A stretch of DNA of 36,949 nt from Candidatus Woesearchaeota archaeon CG10_big_fil_rev_8_21_14_0_10_44_13 (GTDB taxonomy: Archaea; Nanobdellota; Nanobdellia; Woesearchaeales; UBA12501), in the NCBI GenBank assembly GCA_002762985.1, contig PCXZ01000008.1, positions 1-36,949 on the forward strand, given 5' to 3'. The notes under the pieces were generated by a model. It ran no database searches and had not been told where the DNA came from. It saw only the letters and a list, made by a program, of their open reading frames with translations. Numbering within the stretch: position 1 is the stretch's first letter; each line of letters starts with the position of its first letter. The position numbers and the translations under genes are program-made. This document shows positions 6,740-19,627 of the stretch, piece after piece.

Positions 6740-7147
6740 CTTTTCTCTTTTAGCTGTGATTTAACATCTCTGAGAATTACACCCTGAATATATGATTTGA
6801 GAGGTAATATATAAATCTTTTGATTTTTAAGGGGTTAAAATGGGATTTTGAGAAGTATTTTTGCTCATGAAAATATGCTTATAAAATAAAACAACAATAT
6901 TTGCGGGTGGACCAAGGTCCCCCCCGTCCCCCTCCTGCTCGGTGCTGGGAAGCGGAGCAATTTAGCGGGGCAGTTGAGAGATTTGCAGTTGTGCGGCCGT
7001 GAGCAATACTGTCAAACTTCGTTTGACAGGCCTGAAAATGCTTTGCATTTTCAGTATCAGAAAGTTCTGCGGTGATCGCGAATGGATTGAAGATTATGGT
7101 GCAAAAAGCTTAGAAAAACAAATTAAGAGATTAAACAAACCAGAAAT
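6740..7147. other. gene-free interval between rps12 and psmB
   Basis: 408 nt without a credible gene. It holds the psmB promoter region (TATA-like element near 6806-6816), an unusual C/G-rich tract (6904-6970, with a run of C at 6917-6932) and copy A of the dispersed double-hairpin repeat. The only ORF on the plus strand (6999-7448) runs antisense into rps12 and is not credible. Confidence 0.7.
6989..7060 (+). repeat. dispersed double-hairpin repeat, copy A
   Basis: 72 nt identical to the reverse complement of 19556-19627, with weaker similarity continuing to about 7089. It carries two perfect hairpins in tandem: 7009-7029 region (tgtcaaac-ttc-gtttgaca) and 7032-7054 (ctgaaaatgc-ttt-gcattttcag). 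It begins with ttgtgcggccgtgagc. No coding capacity. Confidence 0.9.
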
Positions 7148-7585
7148 TTATTTCCTTGCTTTCTCTACCTTGCCTTTCAATAGGGCATCCAGGCTCTGGT
7201 CATTCACTTTTATGACTGCCCATCTCACGCCGGGGATATCTCCTTTTGCCCTGCCTTTTGTCCCGCCGATCCTCTCGACTATGACCTCGTCGTGCTCGTC
7301 CATCAGTTTTATCGCTCCGTCGCCAGGCGCGAATGCGGTAACCTGCCTGCCGTTCTTTATCAGCTGTACCCTGACGCATTTCCTCATCGCAGAGTTCGGC
7401 TGTTTTGCCTCCAGCTGGACTTTCTCAAGGATTATGCCTTTTGCCTGATGGGCCCCTTCAAGAGGGTCTGATTTCAGCCTTAAGCTCAGCGTCCTCTCTA
7501 CATAATATGGGTCGAGCCATCTTCCATGGACTCTCCTCTTCTTGAGCTTCTTCCCTGCTTTCAATCCTCGTGTTTTCTTGCCCAT
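7148..7585 (-). CDS. rps12: 30S ribosomal protein uS12
   Basis: A 145-residue small-subunit protein of the decoding centre, archaeal/eukaryotic length. The signature [17 protein letters not shown] (about residues 60-76) and the Lys-Gly-rich N-terminus [18 protein letters not shown] are typical of archaeal S12/eukaryotic S23. TATA-like AGATATAAAC lies at about 7625-7634. In many archaea this gene stands with rpoA2, rpl30e and rps7. Here it is alone, with repeat-bearing intergenic DNA on both sides, which suggests an eroded str operon. Confidence 0.97.
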
Positions 7586-16164: not shown

Positions 16165-16279
16165 CAATGGACGAAACCACGGTTTTAGAAACGACAAGCT
16201 TAAACATTGCACGGAAAGGGATTTCCGAACGGAGTGAGGAATATCCCTTACTAGTTTCGGTGCCAATGGACGAAACCAC
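16165..16279. repeat. 16-bp direct repeats flanking a hairpin
   Basis: The 16-mer caatggacgaaaccac occurs at 16165-16180 and again at 16264-16279, 99 nt apart. Between them is an imperfect hairpin: 16216-16226 (aagggatttcc) pairs with 16238-16249 with one bulged base. This lies between the convergent lspA and aIF1A genes. It could be a small insertion with target duplication, a paired-end structure, or a shared terminator. Confidence 0.65.
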
Positions 16280-16281
16280 TG

Positions 16282-16623
16282 TTAGAATTCTTCAGCCTCT
16301 TCAATCCCCTTCAGTTTCCCGTTGTGCTTCAGCCATTCGACCTGTGTCGGCCTGTACTTGAGGAGTATATCGCCTTTCTCATTATCATATTCCCATGGCT
16401 CTACTATGACTATGTCATTCTCCCTGACCCATAATTTCCTCTTCATCCTGCCGGGAATCCTGCATATCCTCTTCTTTCCGTCAAGGCATCTCACATACAT
16501 CCTGCTGCCGCCAAGGCGCTGCTCGACAATGCCTATGACTTCCCTGCCGCGGGGCAGCTTTATTCGGCTTATCTCCTGGTTGATCTGGTCCTGCCTTGCC
16601 TGCTCCTGCTTCTTGATGCCCAT
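16282..16623 (-). CDS. eif1A: translation initiation factor aIF1A
   Basis: A 113-residue OB-fold initiation factor that binds the ribosomal A site and supports initiator tRNA placement. PRGREVIGIVEQRLGGSRMYV and CLDGKKRICRIPGRMKRKLWV are the archaeal/eukaryotic IF1A signature, with the C-terminal helix and an acidic tail (EEAEEF). The frame is open to 16689, but the start is set at the ATG at 16623: TATA CCTTATAAAC is centred 27 nt upstream, matching the leaderless pattern of this genome, and the upstream 22 residues look untypical. The ATG at 16629 is the alternative. Confidence 0.95.
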   Translation of the reverse strand: MGIKKQEQARQDQINQEISRIKLPRGREVIGIVEQRLGGSRMYVRCLDGKKRICRIPGRMKRKLWVRENDIVIVEPWEYDNEKGDILLKYRPTQVEWLKHNGKLKGIEEAEEF

Positions 16624-16644
16624 GAGCATATAGAAAAAAAGGCT

Positions 16645-16654
16645 GTTTATAAGG
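16645..16654 (-). promoter_or_regulatory. TATA box of aIF1A gene
   Basis: CCTTATAAAC; its distance of about 27 nt selects the ATG at 16623 for a leaderless mRNA. Confidence 0.65.
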
Positions 16655-16827
16655 TTTTTGGTGAATCGTTGGTAAAAAAGTGATGACAATGATTTTTATT
16701 TGCCTCAAAAACTACCCCACCCAAAAACGCTGCAAAATCAATGTCCCGCCCTTTCATTCAAATGTGCCTAGAATTTCCATCCTAGAGCACAGGCATTTAG
16801 TTGTGCGCAGTTGTGCTGAAAAAAGAA

Positions 16828-16873
16828 GCGGCCGTGAGCCATATCCGGAAGTTGTGCGGTGGAGGCGAACGGA
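16828..16873 (+). repeat. dispersed repeat, hairpin-less copy C
   Basis: Contains the left end gcggccgtgagc (16828-16839) and the right end agttgtgcggtg...gcgaacgga (16850-16873) of the element seen at 6989 and 19529, but the two internal hairpins are missing and replaced by about 10 nt. It lies between thrS and aIF1A. The rest of the 16690-16926 spacer holds no gene. Confidence 0.65.
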
Positions 16874-16926
16874 ATGATGTGGGTTTAAGAAATGATTAAA
16901 CTCCACTTAGAATATTTAACTTCAGA

Positions 16927-18828
16927 CTAAACTTTTCCTTCAATCTCCTTCTTCATCTGCTCCAAGAATGCATCCGCCTTCTTCTCCCCATGCACCTTGT
17001 TGTCCCTTGTCCTCACATTCACTGTGCCGTTCTTCACTTCATTATCGCCGACGACAAGGATGTAATTGATGTGCTGCATCTGGGCGTCCCTCACTTTCTT
17101 TGGCGTCGATTCTGCCCTTGCATCCAGCTCCACCCTTATCCCTGCTTCAAAGAACCCTTTCTTTACGTTCTCGCAGTATTCATGGTGCCTGTCTGCAATC
17201 GGCAATATGACTGCCTGCACCGGACTCAGCCATAATGGGAAGTTGCCTGCATAATGCTCTATCATGACTCCCATGAATCTCTCAAGGCTGCCAAGGACTG
17301 CGCGGTGTATCATGACTGCCTGGTGCTTCTTCCCGTCAGCGCCCTCATACTGCGTACTGAACCTTTCTGGGAGATTGAAATCAAGCTGGCATGTGGGGCA
17401 CTGCCATTTCCTTCCCAGGGCGTCTTCTATATCAATGTCTATCTTAGGCCCATAGAAAGCCCCTTCTCCTGGTTTTATCTGGTATCTTATCCCTGCCTTC
17501 TTGAGCGCATTGGCGAGAAGCTTTTCAGCCTTGTCCCATGTCTCTCTTGTCCCAAGGGCTTTTTCAGGCATCGTGGACAGATAATACTCCAGCTTGAACC
17601 TGAAGATGTCTTCCCAGACATATTTTATGAATTCCAGCACACCGAGCACTTCGCTCTCGATCTGGTCGAATGCACAGAATATGTGGCCGTCATCCTGGGC
17701 GAATTTCCTCACCCTGAACAATCCTGAGAGCGTCCCTGAGAGCTCATTGCGGTGGAGGTTGCAGAAATCAGCGATCCTCACCGGAAGGTCTTTGTAACTC
17801 TTTATGTCCCGGTTGTAGATGAGGCAATGTGATGGGCAGTTCATCGGCTTCAATGAATGCTCCTGTCCTTCGACATGCACTATGAACATGTTCTCCTTGT
17901 AATGCTCCCAATGCCCTGAAATCTCCCATAGCTTCTTGTTGTACAGCTGAGGGGTTATGACTTCCTGGTACCCCCTCTTCCTGTATTCTGCTCTTATGAA
18001 ATCTATGAGCGCATTGTAGATCACTGCGCCTTTCTTAAGGTAGAACGGGGCTCCCGGGGCGAACTCATGGAAATAGATGAGGTCAAGATCCTTCCCTATC
18101 TTCCTATGGTCCCTCTTCTCTGCCTCCTCGATCAGCTTAAGATGCGCGTCAAGCTCTTTCTGCGAGAAGAATGAGATCCCGTAGATCCTCTGCAATTGCT
18201 TGTTCTTCGCATCCCCCCTCCAGTATGCTCCTGCAAGTTTTGTGATCTTGACCGCTTTGATCAGGCCTGTTGAAGGGATATGCGGGCCCCTGCAAAGGTC
18301 GATGAAATCCCCCTGCTTGTACGCGGATATCTCTCCCTCTGCAAGCTCATTTATCATCTCGACCTTGAACTCATTGTCCTTGAACAGCTCCAATGCCTTC
18401 TTTTTTGTCAGCTCTATCCTCTGGAAACTCTCGTTCTTTGCTATGATCTCCTTCATCTTCTTCTCTATCTTATCAAGGTCTTCGGGATTGAATGGCTTGT
18501 GGTCGAAATCATAATAGAAACCTTCCTCTACTACGGGGCCTATAGTTGGCTTTGCATAAGAGAACAAAGATATCGCTGCTTCTGCAAGTATGTGGGCTGT
18601 GCTGTGGCGGAGCACCGAGACCGCTTCCTTGTCTTTCACTGTGATTATCTTCAGCTTTGAATTCTTATGCAGGCTTGCTGACAGATCGGCAAGCTTGCCG
18701 TCGACTTCAGCAGCGACCGCCTCTTTCGCCAGCCTCGGCCCTATGCTTTCAGCTATCTCTTTGGGGGTGATCCCTGCTTCGAATTCCCTCTTGCTGCTGT
18801 CCGGAAAAGTCACGGTTATTTTAGGCAT
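16927..18828 (-). CDS. thrS: threonyl-tRNA synthetase, bacterial/eukaryotic architecture
   Basis: A 633-residue class II synthetase. In order: TGS domain (about 1-62), the SAD/editing domain with HSTAHILAEAA near 75 and the later CRGPHIPSTG near 178, catalytic core with motif 2 (FRVRKFAQDDGHIF region) and motif 3 (HRAVLGSLERFMGVMIEHY), and an anticodon-binding domain. Zn-site residues are present in the core (NCPSH). Most archaea instead use a form with a D-aminoacyl-tRNA-deacylase-like N-terminal domain, so this copy is of the bacterial type. TATA CTTTATATAC at 18852-18861 suggests a leaderless mRNA. Confidence 0.96.
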   Translation of the reverse strand: MPKITVTFPDSSKREFEAGITPKEIAESIGPRLAKEAVAAEVDGKLADLSASLHKNSKLKIITVKDKEAVSVLRHSTAHILAEAAISLFSYAKPTIGPVVEEGFYYDFDHKPFNPEDLDKIEKKMKEIIAKNESFQRIELTKKKALELFKDNEFKVEMINELAEGEISAYKQGDFIDLCRGPHIPSTGLIKAVKITKLAGAYWRGDAKNKQLQRIYGISFFSQKELDAHLKLIEEAEKRDHRKIGKDLDLIYFHEFAPGAPFYLKKGAVIYNALIDFIRAEYRKRGYQEVITPQLYNKKLWEISGHWEHYKENMFIVHVEGQEHSLKPMNCPSHCLIYNRDIKSYKDLPVRIADFCNLHRNELSGTLSGLFRVRKFAQDDGHIFCAFDQIESEVLGVLEFIKYVWEDIFRFKLEYYLSTMPEKALGTRETWDKAEKLLANALKKAGIRYQIKPGEGAFYGPKIDIDIEDALGRKWQCPTCQLDFNLPERFSTQYEGADGKKHQAVMIHRAVLGSLERFMGVMIEHYAGNFPLWLSPVQAVILPIADRHHEYCENVKKGFFEAGIRVELDARAESTPKKVRDAQMQHINYILVVGDNEVKNGTVNVRTRDNKVHGEKKADAFLEQMKKEIEGKV

Positions 18829-19374: not shown

Positions 19375-19403
19375 TTTCCACTCCATTTATGATTTACGAA
19401 TAA

Positions 19404-19477
19404 CGCCCCCTCGAGGATTTGAACCCCGGTCTCAAGCTCCGCAAGCTCGCATACTATCCAGGCTATACTAAGGGGGC
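19404..19477 (-). tRNA. tRNA-Arg (anticodon GCG)
   Basis: 74 nt that fold as a full cloverleaf. The acceptor stem GCCCCCU/AGGGGGC is fully paired with discriminator G. The D arm is GUAU/GUAU (two G-U pairs) with GG in the loop, the anticodon stem CGAGC/GCUUG carries loop UUGCGGA, the variable loop is 4 nt, and the T arm is CGGGG/CCUCG with loop UUCAAAU. Anticodon GCG reads CGC and CGU arginine codons. CCA is not encoded, consistent with the CCA-adding enzyme at 33496. No intron. A TATA-like TTATAATAA near 19511-19520 lies upstream. Confidence 0.95.
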
Positions 19478-19555
19478 ATGGGAATTTATTGTCGGGTCTG
19501 AGTTCATTTTTATTATAACCCCTCAACAATCCGTTCGCAATCACCGCACAACTAC

Positions 19556-19627
19556 CTGATACTGAAAATGCAAAGCATTTTCAGGCCTGTCAAACGAAGT
19601 TTGACAGTATTGCTCACGGCCGCACAA
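19556..19627 (-). repeat. dispersed double-hairpin repeat, copy B
   Basis: Exact reverse complement of 6989-7060 over 72 nt, with similarity extending to 19529 (right end agttgtgcggtgattgcgaa on the minus strand). Both internal hairpins are perfect. It lies between the tRNA-Arg promoter and the PHP gene end. Confidence 0.9.

Follow-up and report, generated by a model that had tools for sequence, protein, structure and literature searches.

A double-hairpin cassette nested in a mosaic repeat behind genes of a Woesearchaeota archaeon

Module H and its host element in the window

The stretch of DNA analysed here (the window) comprises 36,949 nt of contig PCXZ01000008.1 from Candidatus Woesearchaeota archaeon CG10_big_fil_rev_8_21_14_0_10_44_13, and harbours two inverted copies of a double hairpin, hereafter module H, embedded in a larger repeat, the host element. 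Bases 6989-7060 are the exact reverse complement of 19556-19627 (72 bp, 0 mismatches), as described in the initial annotation, and across 101 nt the two copies are 95% identical. Module H spans 46 nt and consists of hairpin 1 (CTGTCAAAC-TTC-GTTTGACAG, 9-bp stem, 7009-7029), a GC linker and hairpin 2 (CTGAAAATGC-TTT-GCATTTTCAG, 10-bp stem, 7032-7054); two perfect hairpins with the 3-nt loops TTC and TTT and a 10-bp stem had been correctly recognised at the outset, but the first stem is 9 bp in length rather than 8 bp. The module is AT-rich, and its feet read CTG/CAG, bordered by ATA and TAT or TAG. When folded as single-stranded DNA, the 46-nt core reached -16.2 kcal/mol (z = -7.0), with none of 200 shuffled sequences folding equally well. 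The following features are referred to below:

7009..7054, minus strand: module H, copy 1, a 46-nt double hairpin flanked by TA on either side
6889..7146, minus strand: host element copy 1 with a type I end, beginning 1-2 nt past the rpS12 stop codon; its parts are a T-rich leader (~7090-7146), module A (7055-7089), H, module B and a terminal GC-rich hairpin (~6905-6925), all on the minus strand
19562..19607, plus strand: module H, copy 2, identical to copy 1
19527..19627, plus strand: truncated host element copy (A-H-B only, leader and right end missing), located between tRNA-Arg and a PHP-domain gene and opposite in orientation to both
16690..16926 (approximate), minus strand: third host element copy with a type II end, its H site empty (GATATGGCTC), directly behind the ThrRS gene
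16230..16281, minus strand: another hairpin-module fragment of the mosaic system (CAGTGGTTTCGTCCATTGGCACCG...), beginning directly after the stop codon of a small gene (16282-16689)
7148..7585, minus strand: ribosomal protein S12 gene (rpS12), immediately upstream of host copy 1
16927..18828, minus strand: threonyl-tRNA synthetase gene (ThrRS), immediately upstream of the third host copy
19403..19478, minus strand: tRNA-Arg gene, adjoining the truncated host copy

The host element is a non-coding mosaic of about 240-300 nt, in which the leader is followed by module A (CAATCCATTCGCCTCCACCGCACAACTTCCNGATA), module B (NNGCTCATGGCC...) and one of several right ends. The right ends bear additional hairpins and are reshuffled among elements, and since modules have been exchanged in this way, recombination among host elements is clearly active. 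In the terminal hairpin of type I, two-sided changes preserve pairing in two pairs (5 cells, from only 7 sequences), which is modest evidence of covariation. The mobile unit had initially been placed in a stretch of 72-100 nt; the comparisons instead point to a 46-nt cassette nested within the 240-300 nt mosaic element.

That the repeat encodes nothing was borne out, in that the putative peptides of paralogous copies end at differing stop codons, with several containing early stops or 1-nt shifts. An opposite-strand frame (ATG/GTG AGC CAT ATC...) encoding a small protein or leader peptide was rejected on account of these stops and frameshifts among paralogs, and its continuation is not conserved. 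A known RNA family was also considered as the identity of the repeat and rejected, as searches of the curated Rfam families returned only tRNA above the gathering threshold, and no credible match at a relaxed threshold.

Filled and empty copies across the genome

Further copies were sought in the window's own assembly (1,515,128 bases in 36 contigs), with all counts resting on search matches and the stretches around them. The H hairpins were found at six places, namely twice in the window (contig C32) and once each in contigs C13, C17, C25 and C9, always at one position and in one orientation within the larger mosaic element. A pattern search added a variant at C33:7807 (CTGAAAATGGC-TTT-GCCATTTTCAG-GC-CTTGAAAATC...GATTTTCAAG), in which the first stem is longer and the second wholly different, with the arrangement unchanged; this variant lies outside module A. 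A sequence model of the leader and module A retrieved about 42 distinct host elements. The initial annotation mentioned neither these paralogs nor the third copy in the window nor the empty sites. The initial annotation had named a total of only two copies, arising by local duplication, as the outcome that would speak against it; with six copies of H, one variant and some 42 host elements, such a duplication is excluded. Each of the two window copies has the other as its closest relative, so probably one gave rise to the other or the two go back to a recent shared source. Amongst 20 related genomes, the H pattern yielded no match and the model of leader and module A rose no higher than background (best E 5e-4). 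The exact pattern of module A was likewise without a match in scans of genome contigs and viral contigs, collections from which the source genome and its near relatives may have been left out.

The site occupied by H could be compared with 29 scored host copies that lack it, and in these the empty site is exact and scar-free, reading GATA|TGGCTC where filled copies read GATA-[46]-TATGGCTC. The distance from the start of module A to GCTC in the H-free copies was 37 nt in 27 of the 29 and 38 nt in the other two, with no remnants of a hairpin. In filled copies the sequence is ATA-[H]-TA-NNGCTC; relative to the empty paralogs, TA therefore stands on both sides of H in all six, doubled around 46 nt, or around 45 nt in a single copy. 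The mean pairwise identity was 94% for H and 73% for its flanks. Flanks of H-bearing copies were about as similar to one another (mean identity 0.739) as in the comparisons involving other copies (0.725-0.731, of which 0.731 is for H-bearing flanks against the rest), and showed no clustering (permutation 0.45). As H is better conserved than its flanks, and the H-bearing flanks do not cluster, the spread of H appears to postdate that of the host elements. The simplest reading of these alignments is that H would have reached a fixed site in several host elements that had already diverged. The precise empty and filled sites and the higher conservation of H lend support to the earlier suggestion of mobility or gene conversion; both insertion and gene conversion fit these data, and loss by slippage fits less well.

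Under gene conversion, H would have entered one host element once and then been copied to the same place in others by conversion or recombination, with no transposase acting on H. In favour of this explanation, the two window copies share flanking variants and are closest to each other (0.90), and the reshuffled modules indicate that recombination is active. However, the H-bearing flanks are unclustered, conversion tracts would need to have been very short on both sides, and the variant H lies outside module A altogether. We regard conversion as the foremost of the alternatives, though rather unlikely.

Palindromes tend to be deleted where short direct repeats flank them. H could be ancestral, with slippage during replication between its flanking TA repeats having removed it from most copies; this would yield exactly the empty site that is observed. 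Nevertheless, not one of the 29 empty sites retains a scar or a partial palindrome, and H varies far less than flanks that would be of equal age, making such losses improbable as the origin of the pattern.

Position behind genes and a sister double hairpin

Placement of the host elements was assessed against genes called with a codon model, computed rather than curated, and tRNAs predicted by ARAGORN. Of 40 scorable elements, 32 lie behind a co-oriented gene or tRNA (56% under a null of random intergenic positions), and 22 begin no more than 30 nt from its 3' end, at -11 to +26 nt (null 5.7%). The preceding genes include those for rpS12, ThrRS, tRNA-Ala and tRNA-Thr. In a leave-one-out comparison against 126 control gene ends, approximately 20 of 26 leaders outscored 95% or more of them, with six lacking a recognisable leader; the leader, which is more than mere T-richness, thus belongs to the repeat in most copies. 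Repetitive extragenic palindromes (REPs) have also been reported close behind genes (PMC3733652), so placement alone is not unusual, and the constancy of orientation is more telling.

A second double hairpin, of the form AACAG-stem-CTTA-GTT-stem-AAC, occurs inside host elements between the leader and module A, and in other modules as well. At loci L025, L053, L062 and L041, sister hairpins between leader and module A have CAA on either side. Its exact pattern was matched 10, 25, 3 and 2 times in four genomes of the same family; 11 genomes from other families had no match, and a reversed control pattern gave 0 matches. In stem 2, for which the search pattern left the 3' arm free, two-sided changes were found in 5 of 8 pairs, and the structure exceeded all 500 shuffles in cells paired and in covariation score, the shuffle being one that ignores sequence relatedness. 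An identical GAAAATGCTTTGCATTTTC core in H and the sister hairpin makes a shared origin possible. The surroundings of the variant H (G000:C33:7760-7880; L214, ~560-680) resemble a slot (GGTTACG...) that is elsewhere filled by the sister double hairpin, hinting at an exchange of hairpins between slots.

Matches in one relative, G001, were considered as copies of H and proved to be the sister hairpin AACAG...CTTAGTT, which in that genome sits within long non-coding stretches. These intergenic runs (L019, L020, L022) contain repeated CCAATGTTGTTGCTGCC-like units together with AACAG...CTTAGTT double hairpins, and several are found at contig ends, suggesting that the repeats break the assembly.

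The position at 3' ends, the orientation, the T-rich leader and the covarying stems would equally suit selected RNA structures, such as 3'-untranslated region elements, terminators or processing signals, that dispersed long ago and are now immobile. Against this, the element is found at only about 42 gene ends and H in only six copies, and the element looks young, given that its leader and module A do not rise above background in the 20 relatives. An immobile RNA signal is, to our judgement, as poor an account as slippage.

Candidate enzymes and relationship to known hairpin repeats

The genome encodes one IS200-type Y1 transposase (Y1_Tnp), located at the start of contig C30 (L082, 1-600), such that only one side of the gene is visible. 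The initial annotation had proposed a search for such an enzyme; whilst the gene is present, it adjoins its own GC-rich palindrome (CCATAGCC...GGCTATGG), which is unlike the hairpins of the H family. An IS630-type (DDE_3) transposase is split across the ends of contigs C36 and C14 (L217, L218), with visible ends that do not resemble H, and domain searches of the genome found neither TnpB nor a reverse transcriptase. Mobilisation by a RAYT or IS200 enzyme, a TnpB-associated RNA and a retroelement were set aside in view of the foreign palindrome at Y1 and the failure to find TnpB or reverse transcriptase, and an IS630-type miniature inverted-repeat transposable element (MITE) appears unlikely, the transposase being present only as contig-end fragments whose visible ends do not match H. 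An integron attC-like site, considered since the elements follow genes, seems an unlikely identity; the elements are dispersed behind genes of housekeeping function, and archaeal XerA gave the best score for the integrase fragments.

REPs are defined by an unpaired GTAG/CGTC tag beside one foot of their palindrome (PMC3733652). No GTAG or CGTC tag was found at the foot of H; the string CAGTAG, present in two copies, lies partly in the flank, and the remaining four copies lack it. A classical REP or REPIN system, moved by a RAYT or another IS200-family Y1 transposase, would share the location of hairpin repeats close behind genes (PMC3733652) and could draw on the single Y1 gene, yet is very unlikely given the absent tag, the low copy number and the unrelated palindrome beside Y1. 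The REP/MITE-like designation in the initial annotation holds in part: the repeat is multicopy, hairpin-forming and non-coding, but its membership of the REPs is not supported.

Our preferred interpretation, to which we assign a probability of roughly 0.55, is that non-autonomous, hairpin-forming DNA repeats are nested at two levels, with H inserted as a unit and moved or copied in trans. At the outer level, the mosaic elements, some 42 in number and oriented with the genes or tRNAs that they follow, probably arrive at, or replace, a T-rich transcription end. At the inner level, the 46-nt H would enter ATA|NNGCTC of module A as a unit and in a single orientation, duplicating TA. In the likely mechanism, an enzyme of the host or of an element would recognise the folded single-stranded hairpins of H and move or copy the module in trans. 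The copy number, the fixed site, the exact empty sites, the greater conservation of H relative to its flanks, the placement at 3' ends and the covariation in stems of the sister hairpins are observed, whereas movement by insertion in preference to conversion or loss, the enzyme, its reading of the fold and the part played by the transcription end are inferred. Several points weigh against this interpretation: all empty sites compared are in paralogs rather than at orthologous positions, and a fixed site in paralogous repeats is equally expected from conversion between them; the variant at C33:7807 has no clear TA duplication; the gene calls behind the placement were computed, not curated; and no mobilising enzyme for H emerged from the searches for Y1, IS630-type, TnpB and reverse transcriptase proteins.

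Bacteria, and the mitochondria of fungi and sponges, have well-described mobile hairpin repeats. H works like these elements, including yeast GC clusters, mitochondrial double-hairpin elements and REPs, but fails the REP-defining features that were tested. The yeast GC clusters (GC42) and the double-hairpin elements of fungal and sponge mitochondria are likewise non-coding hairpins of ~40-50 nt with few to tens of near-identical copies, and near-identical hairpins in diverged flanks are a feature shared by H (94% against 73%). Elements of this kind have spread into intergenic DNA (PMC2800124), and GC42 has AG or ACT direct repeats at its insertion point (PMC4478555), comparable in their shortness to the TA around H. 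Unlike these elements, H is archaeal, AT-rich rather than GC-rich and confined to one fixed site within another repeat, and no sequence similarity is claimed. Bacterial REPs, BIMEs and REPINs are also intergenic palindromes near the 3' end of upstream genes and are probably moved in trans, whereas no GTAG/CGTC tag or matching RAYT was seen here, the host element is fixed in orientation to the upstream gene, and H is nested in a longer mosaic. The Rickettsia palindromic elements share a palindromic cassette of ~50 nt that is able to keep a frame open; however, the host of H is not a conserved coding gene, and stops and shifts among the paralogs do not fit in-frame insertion. With IS630/Tc1-type MITEs, H has in common an apparent TA duplication, judged against empty paralogs and not clear in the variant H, and a genome containing a DDE_3 transposase fragment, but H comprises two side-by-side hairpins instead of one long inverted repeat, and the IS630-type transposase has no terminal repeats matching H, as far as its incomplete ends show.

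H looks like an undescribed archaeal counterpart of these repeats; a search of open-licence papers for Woesearchaeota with palindromic repeats and a transposase returned nothing relevant. A broader and more doubtful proposal is that this Woesearchaeota lineage may carry active double-hairpin cassettes, with stems rebuilt while the fold and short feet stay, inserted at fixed short sites within larger repeats located at transcription ends and mobilised by a fold-reading enzyme other than the known IS200/REP transposases. The interest of the system lies in its nested, fixed-site structure in an archaeon. Within one small genome, a common host repeat occurs both with and without the 46-nt cassette, allowing the insertion site, the duplication and the order of events to be read, and the consistent 3'-end placement offers a route to archaeal transcription ends and to the tolerance of small genomes for repeats.

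Elsewhere in the window, the GTGGTTTCGTCCATTG motif has a second occurrence at ~16180-16164, near the hairpin-module fragment at 16230-16281, and the nearest relatives of the ThrRS protein are from Woesearchaeota (66-67% identity).
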